The position numbers and the translations under genes were made by a program. From positions 1 to 35,860 of IMG/VR virus record IMGVR_UViG_3300037504_000796: 35,860 nt of DNA. One strand, given 5' to 3'. The stretch is from a virus. The notes beneath the pieces are model-generated. The model did no database searches. It was not told where the DNA came from and saw nothing but the letters and a program-made list of their open reading frames with translations. Position 1 is the first letter of the stretch. The number at the start of each line of letters is the position of its first letter. Positions 26,680 to 30,694 of this stretch are shown piece after piece.

Positions 26680-26861
26680 TCCTCGGCCTCCTCTCTCCTC
26701 CATTCTGCGTGACTACTCCCCCGCCAGTCCGCTACCGGCAGGAGCAGCCCGTCGCCCAAATCGGCGCACAGCGCACGGCCTGCGCGCACCAGCCTGACCC
26801 TGTACTCGTCGCCGTCGATGGTGGCGATGTAGTTGCCTGGTTCGCTGGGGGTGTAGTTCAC
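26676..26861 (-). CDS. Small beta-fold protein
   Basis: From GTG 26861 (AGGAGGG six bases upstream, GTGA overlap) the product is 61 residues (NYTPSEPGNYIATIDGDEYRV, then LVRAGRALCADLGDGLLLPV). The spacing of hydrophobic residues suggests a small five-strand fold followed by a charged helix. Function is unknown. It is coupled to the DUF5131 gene before it. Confidence 0.65.
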   Translation of the reverse strand: MNYTPSEPGNYIATIDGDEYRVRLVRAGRALCADLGDGLLLPVADWRGSSHAEWRREEAEE

Positions 26862-27769
26862 TCCGCCCTCCTGTTCCATGCGTTCACCGCCTGCTGGGGC
26901 CACTCCCGCACTGCCAAGTCTGCTGGGATAGCTTCGCGCTCTACCTTCGTCCGTCCGCTCATCTGCTTCATAAAGAACGGAACATCCGCCGTATTGCACT
27001 GGTCCCGCAAGCTCCGCGCCCAGTCGGGATTCATGTATCGTGCGTGTGTCCCTGACTCTCCACCGCAGATGAGCCAGTTGACACTTGTTACGCATTTCCC
27101 GTCTGTCCATCCCTGGAGTACGCTGTACGGCGGAAAAGTGCCATTTGGCATCTGGGTCAAGTCTACCGCTCCCAGCATCGGCTCCACCGATACGAACCGC
27201 ACCGCTGCCGGGATGTCCAGTAGGAGCGGAATCCGCCCATCAGCCTGCTTCTGATTCTCGGCGGTGACGCCCACCCAGATGTGACTGGGGAGTTCCCGTC
27301 CTACAGCTAGCTGAGCGGCGGCCATGGCCGCCATTGCGCCTCGCCCCAGCTTGTAGGCGGCCGCAGACCCGATATTTCTGCGCGCCTGTAGCATATCGTT
27401 GATGTACTGCCGCATCCTCTCCGGGCGTTTTGTCAAAATCATGAAAATGTGCTGGGAGGCCAGTATCATGGCGGCGAAGATCGCATCCAGTTCTATGACG
27501 GGAACGTCTAGATGAAACAGGTCGCCCATCGAGCATACGAACACCGCCGAGGGCTCCCGCCAGCGAAGCGGCTGATCGTAACGCTCAGGGAATGCCGCCA
27601 CGTGGTCGCAGCTCTCAGGCCACCCTTTCAGTCCCGCAAACCGTTTGATGAGGTCTAGGGCATAGCAGTTCTGGCATCCAGCGCTGATCGGAGTGCAGCC
27701 CATAACCGGGTTCCAGGTCCGGGGTCTATACCCTGGAATATGCGTCCACTGAATCTTGGTGCCTTTCAT
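26858..27769 (-). CDS. DUF5131 / phage Gp37-Gp68 family protein
   Basis: From ATG 27769 the product is 303 residues. It shows the diagnostic family segment TWNPVMGCTPISAGCQNCYA, a Cys cluster (C-x6-C-x2-C) like that of radical SAM enzymes, then FVCSMGDLFH and FMILTKRPERM, and near the end WVGVTAENQ, RFVSVEPML and LICGGESG. Members are frequent in phages, and their relation to SPL-like radical SAM proteins suggests an Fe-S/SAM enzyme of unknown substrate. Here it sits in the replication/early operon, overlapping both neighbours by ATGA. The biochemical role is not known. Confidence 0.9.
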   Translation of the reverse strand: MKGTKIQWTHIPGYRPRTWNPVMGCTPISAGCQNCYALDLIKRFAGLKGWPESCDHVAAFPERYDQPLRWREPSAVFVCSMGDLFHLDVPVIELDAIFAAMILASQHIFMILTKRPERMRQYINDMLQARRNIGSAAAYKLGRGAMAAMAAAQLAVGRELPSHIWVGVTAENQKQADGRIPLLLDIPAAVRFVSVEPMLGAVDLTQMPNGTFPPYSVLQGWTDGKCVTSVNWLICGGESGTHARYMNPDWARSLRDQCNTADVPFFMKQMSGRTKVEREAIPADLAVREWPQQAVNAWNRRAE

Positions 27770-28221
27770 CGTTCCCCGCCCTTCATCGCAGGGTCGATGA
27801 ACGAAAAATGGCCTCTCGATTGAAGCAGGCAACTTGACTGTTCGGGTATCCCCGTCGCCCGCAAAGCCCCCAAGGTCCGAAGTGTTGCCAAGGCCTGCTC
27901 CGCGGGCATGCATTTTTCCAAGCTCTTTCGGAGGCTGTGCCGCTGGCGCAGCCGCTTCAGGTGCGTCATGCGCTCCTGCTGAGCCTGCTGTCTCCTGCCG
28001 TGATGGACAAGACCCTCCACCAGGTGCGCTCGGAACATCCGCTGGATCGCGTCGATCATGTCCGCGTTTTCGATGATGTCCTCGGCCTCTTCGCGCTCGT
28101 ATTCGCCGTGCTCGGCCAACCGCGACAGTACCCAGCCGACCAGCAGGACCACGAGGACCAACAGCACCCCGAAGACCCAGCCCCAGGGGCCGCCGTCATA
28201 TGGTTCGACGTATTGAGTCAC
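27766..28221 (-). CDS. Membrane protein with charged cytoplasmic domain
   Basis: From GTG 28221 (GAGGAGG upstream and GTGA overlap) the 151-residue product has an N-terminal segment (QYVEPYDGGPWGW), one strong transmembrane helix (about 14-33, FGVLLVLVVLLVGWVLSRL), and a helical His/Arg-rich part (HHGRRQQAQQERMTHLKRL). The helix suggests an inner-membrane anchor with a nucleic-acid or coiled-coil tail. No family recognised. Its position between the replication initiator and DUF5131 is shared by several unknown membrane genes. Confidence 0.68.
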   Translation of the reverse strand: MTQYVEPYDGGPWGWVFGVLLVLVVLLVGWVLSRLAEHGEYEREEAEDIIENADMIDAIQRMFRAHLVEGLVHHGRRQQAQQERMTHLKRLRQRHSLRKSLEKCMPAEQALATLRTLGALRATGIPEQSSCLLQSRGHFSFIDPAMKGGER

Positions 28222-28691: not shown

Positions 28692-29503
28692 TGCCGCTCC
28701 CTTCTGATCCGCTCCCTCTGCTGCTTGCAGTATTCGGCGATCCGTTTCTGGTCCTTGCTCTCAACCACCTGCCGCTCCATCCGGTCAAGCACTTCGTTGA
28801 TGTACCTCTCGGCGTTGTTGCGCCGCAGCGGGTGTTCTATCCCGGCGTGATTCTCAACGCACCACTGCTGCTGATGCACCAGCGCAAAAATGTCCCTCCA
28901 GTGATTACGGAACCATTCGTGGGCCCATCTGGCCTTCGCGTTGCGCTTGGCACCATCGCCAAAGACAACACATCGCCTGAGCCCGGATTCTTGGCAAAGC
29001 CGGTTCCATTCCTCCTGGAGTTCGGAGTAGGGGCATGCCGGCGCGGTAGCGCCGCCACTATTCCCTTTTCCCATTCTCTCATTCTTACATTCTTGTATAG
29101 TGGTTGTCGGTGGGTTGTCGGTGGGTTGTCGGTGGGTTGTCGGTGGGTTTCCTAGCGGGTTGGCTGTGTTGCCATTGCCTTGGTAATTCTCCCAATTGCA
29201 TATAGTTATCAGTGTACCATGGCGGGTTGGCTGTATGGTTATGGACTCGAGCCCCTCAGGCCCAAGATCACGCAGGCAACGTCGGATAACTTGTTCGCCT
29301 AAGCCAAGTAAGCTAGCCATCTTGCGACGTCCGGTTATCAGCTGCCCCGGCTCGAGTTTTGTCCATTGATTCGCGAACTTGGTCTTGTGAGGTTTATGGC
29401 TGGCATGAGTAAGAATATAGACCCAAACAGTCAATAGGTAAGGATCCTGCAGCATCCCGGAATCTTCGATTTTCCGCCACAGCTTGATGTATCCTCTATG
29501 CAT
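28688..29503 (-). CDS. Replication initiator / replisome organizer-like protein
   Basis: From ATG 29503 the product is 271 residues. Residues 1-115 form a winged-helix-type domain like phage replisome organizers (RGYIKLWRKIEDSG, ASLLGLGEQVIRRCLRDLGP, ITICNWENYQG). A low-complexity linker follows (TTHRQPTDNPPTTTIQ), encoded by four 11-bp repeats. The C-terminal half (about 155-271) is charged and helical with many Arg and Trp residues, probably for binding a helicase or loader. Lambda O has the same layout, with the origin in the linker. The GTG at 29506 is an alternative start. It is downstream of a promoter and a structured leader. Confidence 0.8.
   Translation of the reverse strand: MHRGYIKLWRKIEDSGMLQDPYLLTVWVYILTHASHKPHKTKFANQWTKLEPGQLITGRRKMASLLGLGEQVIRRCLRDLGPEGLESITIQPTRHGTLITICNWENYQGNGNTANPLGNPPTTHRQPTDNPPTTTIQECKNERMGKGNSGGATAPACPYSELQEEWNRLCQESGLRRCVVFGDGAKRNAKARWAHEWFRNHWRDIFALVHQQQWCVENHAGIEHPLRRNNAERYINEVLDRMERQVVESKDQKRIAEYCKQQRERIRRERQ
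29059..29102 (-). other. AT-rich, purine-rich tract beside iterons, candidate origin unwinding element
   Basis: On the minus strand bases 29100-29061 are about 65% A+T and 80% purine in an otherwise GC-rich genome, with three GAATG repeats. The tract directly follows the iterons, as the DNA-unwinding element does in lambdoid origins. Confidence 0.5.
29103..29149 (-). repeat. Four perfect 11-bp direct repeats inside the initiator gene (candidate iterons)
   Basis: GTTGTCGGTGG occurs four times head to tail (29103, 29114, 29125, 29136), with three more bases of a fifth copy. The unit is not a multiple of three, so each copy encodes a different tripeptide, which argues for selection on DNA rather than protein. 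This matches initiator-binding iterons in the lambda O linker. Confidence 0.65.
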
Positions 29504-29680: not shown

Positions 29681-30607
29681 TCAGGGTGGCAGTTCATCGG
29701 TCAGCACTTCCCATGCAAGGCGCACCACTGCCGGTACCTGGCCGTTGCCAATGGCCTTAAGGCGGTCCACCCTATGGGCCACCCCATGAGCCACTCGACC
29801 CAATCGGGATTGAGTTTGGCCTGCTGTGTCTGCCCCACTTTTTCCTCCAGGTTGCATTTCTGCCGGTCTTCCTGAGTAGTTCTGGTCATTTGGCACCTGG
29901 GAGTAGGCCACTTCCGCCGGGTCTGCGGCCCACCAAGCAAACGAACCGTCTTGCTCAGCCCCGCTCCTTTGCCCGTATGCGGGTTGACTCCGCTTCGCTC
30001 GCTGGCTGTCGGCGTGGGCCACAGATTGTGCCGCGCCATCGTTTCGAGGCTCGGACGTGCCGGCCCCACTCTTCCCGCTGCGCCGCCACGATTGCTGCCA
30101 TATCGGCTGGCGCTGGGCGTTGGCAAGCACCCATATCCGGTCTCGCTTGTGAGGCGCCCCGGCATGGCGAGCTCCGATAACGCCCCATCGCGCATCATAC
30201 CCCAGCGCGGCAAGGTCAGCGAGCACGACGTCAAGGCCCCGGGAAACAAGCAATGGACTGTTCTCCACCAGCGCGTATCGGGGTCGAACCTCACTGATGA
30301 CACGGGCCATCTCTCGCCACAGACCACTACGCTGTCCCTCGATACCCCGGCCTCGGCCCGCCGCTGATATATCCTGGCAAGGGAACCCTCCGGTGACGAC
30401 ATCGACGCATCCCCGCCAAGGCCTTCCGTCGAAGGTGCAGATGTCGTCCCAGATAGGGAACCACGGTAGGCACCCATACTGCTGTCGTCGGAGCAAGACC
30501 TCCCGACAGAAGGGGTCGACTTCAACGGCGCACACGGTCCGCCATCCGAGGAGGTGAGCCCCCAAGATTCCGCCACCTGCCCCGGCAAATAGTGCCAACT
30601 CACGCAT
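29681..30607 (-). CDS. C5-cytosine DNA methyltransferase (Dcm-type)
   Basis: The 308-residue product methylates cytosine at C5 using SAM. The motifs appear in order: I (LFAGAGGGILGA, residues 6-17), IV with catalytic C77 in GGFPCQDIS, VI as ENSP (residues 115-118, replacing the usual ENV), VIII (HKRDRIWVLA), a variable target-recognition region (about 165-265), and X (LKAIGNGQVPAVV). It probably protects phage DNA from restriction. GGGGAG precedes ATG 30607. The same DNA holds a 300-codon second frame, described separately. Assignment is firm; sequence specificity unknown. Confidence 0.93.
   Translation of the reverse strand: MRELALFAGAGGGILGAHLLGWRTVCAVEVDPFCREVLLRRQQYGCLPWFPIWDDICTFDGRPWRGCVDVVTGGFPCQDISAAGRGRGIEGQRSGLWREMARVISEVRPRYALVENSPLLVSRGLDVVLADLAALGYDARWGVIGARHAGAPHKRDRIWVLANAQRQPIWQQSWRRSGKSGAGTSEPRNDGAAQSVAHADSQRAKRSQPAYGQRSGAEQDGSFAWWAADPAEVAYSQVPNDQNYSGRPAEMQPGGKSGADTAGQTQSRLGRVAHGVAHRVDRLKAIGNGQVPAVVRLAWEVLTDELPP
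29701..30603 (-). CDS. Overlapping-frame protein within the methyltransferase gene
   Basis: A 300-codon frame from GTG 30603 lies almost wholly inside the methyltransferase gene. It contains segments I know from separately annotated phage proteins: GYGCLPTPSASRYGSNRGG, SLETMARHNLWPTPTA, WPTPRCQMTR and LNPDWVEWLMGWPIGWT near its end. The last block is the same DNA as methyltransferase motif X in another frame. Either two proteins are coded, or the second frame is an old shadow that has been annotated as a family. The lack of stops is partly due to high GC. It overlaps the methyltransferase start by a few bases and has no separate strong ribosome site. Confidence 0.5.
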   Translation of the reverse strand: MSWHYLPGQVAESWGLTSSDGGPCAPLKSTPSVGRSCSDDSSMGAYRGSLSGTTSAPSTEGLGGDASMSSPEGSLARIYQRRAEAGVSRDSVVVCGERWPVSSVRFDPDTRWWRTVHCLFPGALTSCSLTLPRWGMMRDGALSELAMPGRLTSETGYGCLPTPSASRYGSNRGGAAGRVGPARPSLETMARHNLWPTPTASERSGVNPHTGKGAGLSKTVRLLGGPQTRRKWPTPRCQMTRTTQEDRQKCNLEEKVGQTQQAKLNPDWVEWLMGWPIGWTALRPLATARYRQWCALHGKC

Positions 30608-30616
30608 CGTCTCCCC

Positions 30617-30694
30617 TCACCTGTGCTCCAGCAGTATCCACGCCGCCAGCGCGAGGCAGCCGAGGACGGCCAGCCACCAGAGGGCGTTAGTCAC
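30617..30694 (-). CDS. 25-residue membrane micropeptide
   Basis: GTG 30694 overlaps the stop of the preceding gene and reads a single hydrophobic helix (NALWWLAVLGCLALAAWILL) with a charged end. GAGGGTGG precedes the start. It lies directly before the methyltransferase gene. Very short membrane peptides are common in phages and cannot be assigned by sequence. Confidence 0.55.
   Translation of the reverse strand: MTNALWWLAVLGCLALAAWILLEHR

Follow-up and report, generated by a model that had tools for sequence, protein, structure and literature searches.

Can one stretch of phage DNA carry two selected proteins in two frames, and, if it can, what is the second protein to the first? The question is raised by a locus on the minus strand of the 35,860 nt stretch analysed here (the window; IMG/VR record IMGVR_UViG_3300037504_000796), where nearly all of the DNA is common to a cytosine methyltransferase gene (A) and to a second reading frame (B), which lies in the +1 frame relative to A. 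The preliminary description of this DNA had reported a 300-codon second frame resembling a known phage protein, together with intact methyltransferase motifs I, IV, VI, VIII and X in the other frame, and had left the choice between real dual coding and misannotation. The second frame was found at the place described, as a B of 300 aa within 29681-30607, and the main features are as follows:

29681-30607, minus strand: gene A (putative alpha), C5-cytosine methyltransferase, 308 aa (PF00145, phrog_363, tblastn)
29701-30603, minus strand: gene B (putative beta), phrog_1008 family, 300 aa, +1 relative to A (phrog_1008 match; stop deficit)
30601-30607, minus strand: overlapping starts, ATG of A at 30605-30607 and GTG of B at 30601-30603, four bases apart (conserved A+4 start)
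30611-30622, minus strand: possible shared ribosome-binding site aggtgaggggag (proposed from its sequence and SD-like words)

Family matches and motifs

Gene A matched PF00145 in Pfam at 3.3e-30, with a match spanning only aa 2-169, i.e., motifs I-VIII, and phrog_363 in PHROGs at 6.1e-67, and it was matched by tblastn in all 160 loci obtained from two scans. All the motifs that had been called intact can be read in A, namely I (LFAGAGGG), IV (GFPCQ), VI (VENSP), VIII and X (AIGNGQVP), where the names I-X are those which we take to fit these strings; the canonical form of motif VI is ENV. Among 72 sequences, the GFPCQ, ENSP, RxRxW and GNGQV columns are invariant or nearly so, and the catalytic motifs stand in order, followed by a C-terminal motif X. 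What a monomeric enzyme would carry on the same chain in addition, a recognition region and motif IX, is absent from the A chain.

Frame B matched phrog_1008 at 1e-26, a PHROGs family labelled DNA methyltransferase, and the strings SLETMARHNLWPTPTA and LNPDWVEWLMGWPIGWT both lie inside B, which bears out the resemblance to a known phage protein; no family in Pfam or NCBIfam was matched by B. In PHROGs, loci of a single kind thus seem to be represented by two families, one for each frame. It had also been stated that the C-terminal block of the B family and motif X are the same DNA. This is right for the C-terminal tail of B, which is the stretch overlapping the motif X DNA, but not for LNPDWVEWLMGWPIGWT (29761-29811), which adjoins motif X (about 29726-29767) and has only about 7 bases in common with it.

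Openness of frame B

Stops in frame B were compared with a null in which the amino acids of A and each gene's own codons were kept and synonymous codons were shuffled. In the window alone, B has 0 stops against 5.2 expected, and none of 200 shuffles was as low. The comparison was extended to 160 relatives from two viral-contig scans (80 found via B and 80 via A), and 160 of the 161 genes entered the count, as L036 was omitted owing to a stop that leaves its A frame below 450 bases. Across these 160 genes, whose loci range from 38 to 68% GC, frame B contains 11 stops against 679 expected; the third frame contains 2441 against 1944 expected. The deficit is present in the loci found via A (10 against 313 expected, 74 distinct genes), in those found via B (1 against 322, 77 distinct genes) and in the genome contigs (3 against 230, 61 distinct genes). 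All 11 stops are located in six of the 160 genes: in two the stop stands behind the motif IX block and is B's own end, three are loci with shifted frames, and in one (L160) it is near the end, with no motif IX found by regex. Stops upstream of B's own end are therefore nearly absent in relatives, which was the check that the preliminary description had proposed, and of its two possibilities the comparison of sequences indicates that dual coding at this locus is real.

Two side observations concern this set. In L036 (2497-2817), codon 108 of A is a stop, and B is open throughout. In four loci of low-GC phages (L052, L055, L077 and L078), the gene has a GC content of 0.49-0.50 against 0.38-0.39 for the locus, as if dual coding were holding its composition.

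Selection along the two frames

Codon positions 1, 2 and 3 of A are positions 3, 1 and 2 of B, so the ratio of variability at A1 and A3 (A1/A3) tells which frame is restrained. A first codon-position analysis used 148 distinct complete genes, and the ratios were taken from 48 disjoint pairs of relatives with a median divergence of 8%. The parts of the two products to which they refer are the following:

30113-30607, minus strand: A aa 1-165, motifs I-VIII, predicted SAM binding and catalysis (PF00145; A3 variable; confident AlphaFold2 segment)
30424-30603, minus strand: B aa 1-60, N-terminal extension, under double constraint within the clade of the window (A1/A3 raised relative to aa 61-100)
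30154-30303, minus strand: B aa 101-150, conserved core (W.T..C..., TLPRWGMMR.G), opposite A motifs VI-VIII (alignment; A1/A3 at aa 101-140)
29761-30141, minus strand: B aa 155-281, putative target-recognition region and motif IX block LNPDWVEWLMGWPIGWT (A1/A3; profile matches)
29699-29782, minus strand: A aa 276-303, motif X (selection returns to A; motif X in frame 0 in 347 of 507 loci)

At aa 61-100 of A, position A3 is the most variable and A1/A3 equals 0.22, like in an ordinary gene. The ratio is 0.60 at aa 1-60 and 0.71 at aa 101-140; this rise is because A3 is restrained, and it is a sign of double constraint. Over aa 168-278 the ratio turns over to 2.33 (95% interval 1.84-3.20), with A1 more variable than A3 in 45 of the 48 pairs, and at aa 281-303 it is back to 0.56. 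Changes in the second frame are thus not neutral, which answers the proposed comparison of rates by frame. In the same stretch, aa 168-278, the amino-acid identity of B (0.70) exceeds that of A (0.47), and in the other zones it is A that is higher. There is no detectable amino-acid selection on A where B carries the recognition region. A is still open there, with 1 stop against 450 expected given B, in a test of 142 genes from which six odd loci (L032, L036, L148, L150, L151 and L156) and genes without ATG or GTG at A+4, without a complete B or with a B below 200 aa were left out.

Purifying selection is therefore found on both the A and the B frames, at once in aa 1-60 and 101-140 and elsewhere on one at a time, and it follows from these zones that only B is selected where recognition and motif IX are encoded, and that selection is back on A at motif X. 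Two distant clades show the same turnover in every divergence class, the weakest being at 15-40%, where all positions vary. In these clades A3 is not restrained over aa 1-60 (0.42-0.56 above 15% divergence), which fits a later start of B there; in the window's clade B starts at A+4. The locus offers a clean system for studying simultaneous selection on two frames.

Single-chain, split and interleaved relatives

What frame B is can best be read from relatives in which the same parts are arranged differently, and the single-chain and split relatives serve as natural controls. In the enzyme of the Mycobacterium phage Hamulus type (L251), PTP units and a WMMGWPAGW block share a single frame with the catalytic motifs and motif X. 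The catalytic part, the PTP units (in the window at B aa 160, 195 and 232) and the motif IX block are common to the window and the Hamulus type, but in the latter, which accounts for 38 of 507 loci, all of them lie in a single frame and chain. A profile built from the C-terminal halves of B in the clade of the window matched 37 of 38 single-chain methyltransferases, all 31 second ORFs of split enzymes and, in three distant interleaved clades, 132 of 132 B frames and 0 of 132 A frames, although these groups were formed with the motif-IX regex and the match is partly conditioned by it. The same profile gave nothing significant against PDB sequences. Because the B block stands in frame in single-chain methyltransferases, B would be the target-recognition domain plus motif IX, an assignment made by position and by the single-chain relatives.

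Classification of the 507 loci, which come from chosen scans with near-copies and some contigs twice and are not an unbiased sample, gave 347 interleaved loci with motif IX in +1 and motif X in 0, 38 single-chain loci, 31 with IX and X together in +1, 9 with other shifts and 82 unclassified (150 with an earlier, narrower motif-IX regex). The arrangement also varies between relatives. L228 belongs to the same subfamily as the window, and there A is closed by stops after motif VIII and motif X follows recognition and IX in the B frame; in L148 the recognition region has moved into the A frame. On a tree of 52 representatives, the interleaved genes are spread over deep branches, and the labels need 11 changes, below all 200 shuffles (a quick tree with many weak forks). 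We tentatively suggest, at somewhat less than even confidence, that there is among phage C5 methyltransferases a large and old interleaved class, with recognition encoded +1 to catalysis, in which small indels shift motif X or the recognition region and so interconvert single-chain, split and interleaved forms. The recognition half would then be a series of PTP units that may be gained or lost without breaking the catalytic frame, so that specificity could change like a cassette while staying linked to the catalytic half.

The number of PTP units in B is 3 in the window and 0-5 in 142 relatives, and B is longer where there are more of them (r = 0.63). At the junction of motif VIII and the recognition region, L148, L150, L151 and L156 (compare L143) have a C-rich tract of PPP codons; the first three have catalysis and recognition in the same frame, and in L156 the recognition region is in the third frame, which is either phase variation or assembly error.

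Translation starts and the proposed enzyme

Of 118 distinct contexts, 111 have an ATG or GTG precisely at A+4, a B-frame stop lies just upstream of the A+4 start in 99 contexts, and SD-like words were found in 95 of the 111 contexts with this start. In 17 of the 111, the A+1 codon is not a start, and a possible A start lies 2-41 codons upstream. Judged from the sequence, a ribosome-binding site common to both frames is possible.

To hypothesize, the locus very likely encodes a two-subunit C5-cytosine DNA methyltransferase with its subunits interleaved on the same DNA. Frame A would give alpha, with SAM binding and catalysis (I-VIII) plus the C-terminal motif X, and the stretch of alpha between VIII and X would consist of residues that are unselected but must stay open, so that motif X gets translated. 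Frame B, starting four bases downstream and probably from the same ribosome-binding site as A, would give beta, with the N-terminal extension, the core opposite VI-VIII, the recognition region with its PTP units and motif IX. Both subunits would be made from one message and would assemble into the usual two-domain enzyme, with beta positioning the target for methylation by alpha. Translation of both frames, assembly, activity and specificity are what we infer from the sequence. The locus would then be a long, old, same-strand overlapping pair whose frames seem to be parts of one enzyme, with the work divided domain by domain. Both frames reported in the preliminary description are indeed selected, but it had missed this split, with catalysis in A and recognition and motif IX in B. 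On the two-subunit model, A cloned alone would yield an inactive protein.

Selection passes from A to B near motif VIII, and this could also be expected of programmed frameshifting, in which one chimeric chain would be read from A and then +1 into B for recognition and IX; L148, L150 and L151, where recognition and catalysis share a frame beside the C-rich tract, would suit it as well. We regard this as very improbable, since B has its own conserved start at A+4 and an N-terminal part under selection in the window's clade, and since A is held open to motif X, which would require a second shift. Alternatively, B could be an unrelated overlapping protein (e.g., anti-restriction or regulatory) with A complete alone, as B falls in no Pfam family and its long N-terminal part does not resemble any known methyltransferase domain. 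Given that single-chain relatives use the B block for their recognition part and that A is unselected between VIII and X by the identities above, this is very improbable. A third reading, in which B would be no gene and would owe its openness and similarity to the conservation and codon use of A, is hardly credible: GC-rich genomes do more often leave +1 frames open and the N-terminal identity of B follows partly from A, but the own-codon shuffles rule out chance openness through GC-rich codon use, also at 38% GC, and the higher conservation of B than of A over the recognition region is impossible for a by-product of A.

Structure predictions

The two-subunit reading was also set beside predicted structures. 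The AlphaFold2 model of A fits it, being confident over most of I-VIII and X and disordered between them. B alone modelled poorly (pLDDT 56, pTM 0.29), as might be expected of half an enzyme, and the B model gives no support to the proposal. Foldseek of B against the PDB returned 4 matches, none with E <= 0.001, and so no solved fold; against BFVD there were 3 with E <= 0.001, one of them named SAM-dependent methyltransferase with a TM-score of 0.17. Structure as a proof of the role of B was dropped, because the B model is poor and the Foldseek matches are weak.

Comparison with known systems and records

The principle of interleaving is known from at least one enzyme, M.EcoHK31I, in which the small gene lies inside the large gene in another frame; M.BsuMI (YdiO, YdiP) is another two-gene enzyme. 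M.EcoHK31I (YGGCCR) is a two-polypeptide C5 methyltransferase (Lee, Kam, Shaw 1995, as cited in PMC3404938) and part of a restriction-modification system (table in PMC6456624); according to PMC3404938, its large subunit carries I-VIII, X and a predicted TRD, and the small one only IX. The window likewise has I-VIII and X on the large chain and IX on the small one (IX via single-chain relatives), a likeness in motif layout. Unlike the TRD predicted in that large subunit, the recognition region of the window is selected only in B, which puts this TRD placement in question, and unlike a restriction-modification system, the window's pair has no recognised nuclease among the neighbouring genes covered. 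M.AquI (CYCGRG) consists of alpha and beta, the second chain holding part of the variable region, IX and X according to PMC3404938. It is like the window as a two-chain C5 methyltransferase with recognition completed on the second chain, and differs in that the window keeps motif X on the A chain. Closer to M.AquI are the 31 split relatives among the 507 loci (e.g., L228 and L481), with X on the second chain in L228.

In ShiLan, an out-of-frame HNH endonuclease lies inside a phage methylase (PMC11855218), which is like the window in having a second reading frame within a phage methylase gene, but there the second frame is a mobile insertion and not an enzyme subunit. An insertion with an HNH-like, zinc-finger-like reading frame is present in L032 (about 1180-1560) before motif X, where it interrupts frame A and splits the motif IX block from X, and it resembles the published ShiLan element.

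Overlaps of this kind are rarely permitted by gene-calling programs, and most records therefore contain just one half of the putative enzyme. Among 14 interleaved regions in annotated phage or plasmid records, judged by the frames of the listed coordinates, 8 have A only (L161-L164, L249, L254-L256), 4 have B only (L165, L166, L248, L252) and 2 have both (L250 and L253, Paenibacillus phages; one noted 'g49 internal gene'). The suspicion of a misannotation is not upheld, as the one-frame annotations are incomplete rather than false. The inner gene goes unmentioned in the accessible portions of two Paenibacillus phage papers, though it is annotated in GenBank records. No paper on interleaved phage methyltransferases was found in the open-licence literature, an absence that proves little. 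Apparently new, in that we have not seen them described, are the wide occurrence in phages and prophages from many hosts, the map of selection by frame and the series of single-chain, split and interleaved forms.

Genomic neighbourhood

The neighbours of the pair are replication and recombination genes (DnaD-like loader, single-strand binding, Sak4-like, exonuclease). None of the neighbours scanned was recognised as a restriction nuclease, so the methyltransferase is likely a solitary one with a protective or regulatory role, and the phage would likely use it to mark its own DNA against restriction, or for regulation. Downstream, the window encodes a large DUF5131 protein of unknown function (26858-27913, minus strand; PF07505, 5.3e-75), and a short tandem repeat of about 11 bases (ggtgggttgtc) lies within the DnaD-like gene at about 29098-29151.
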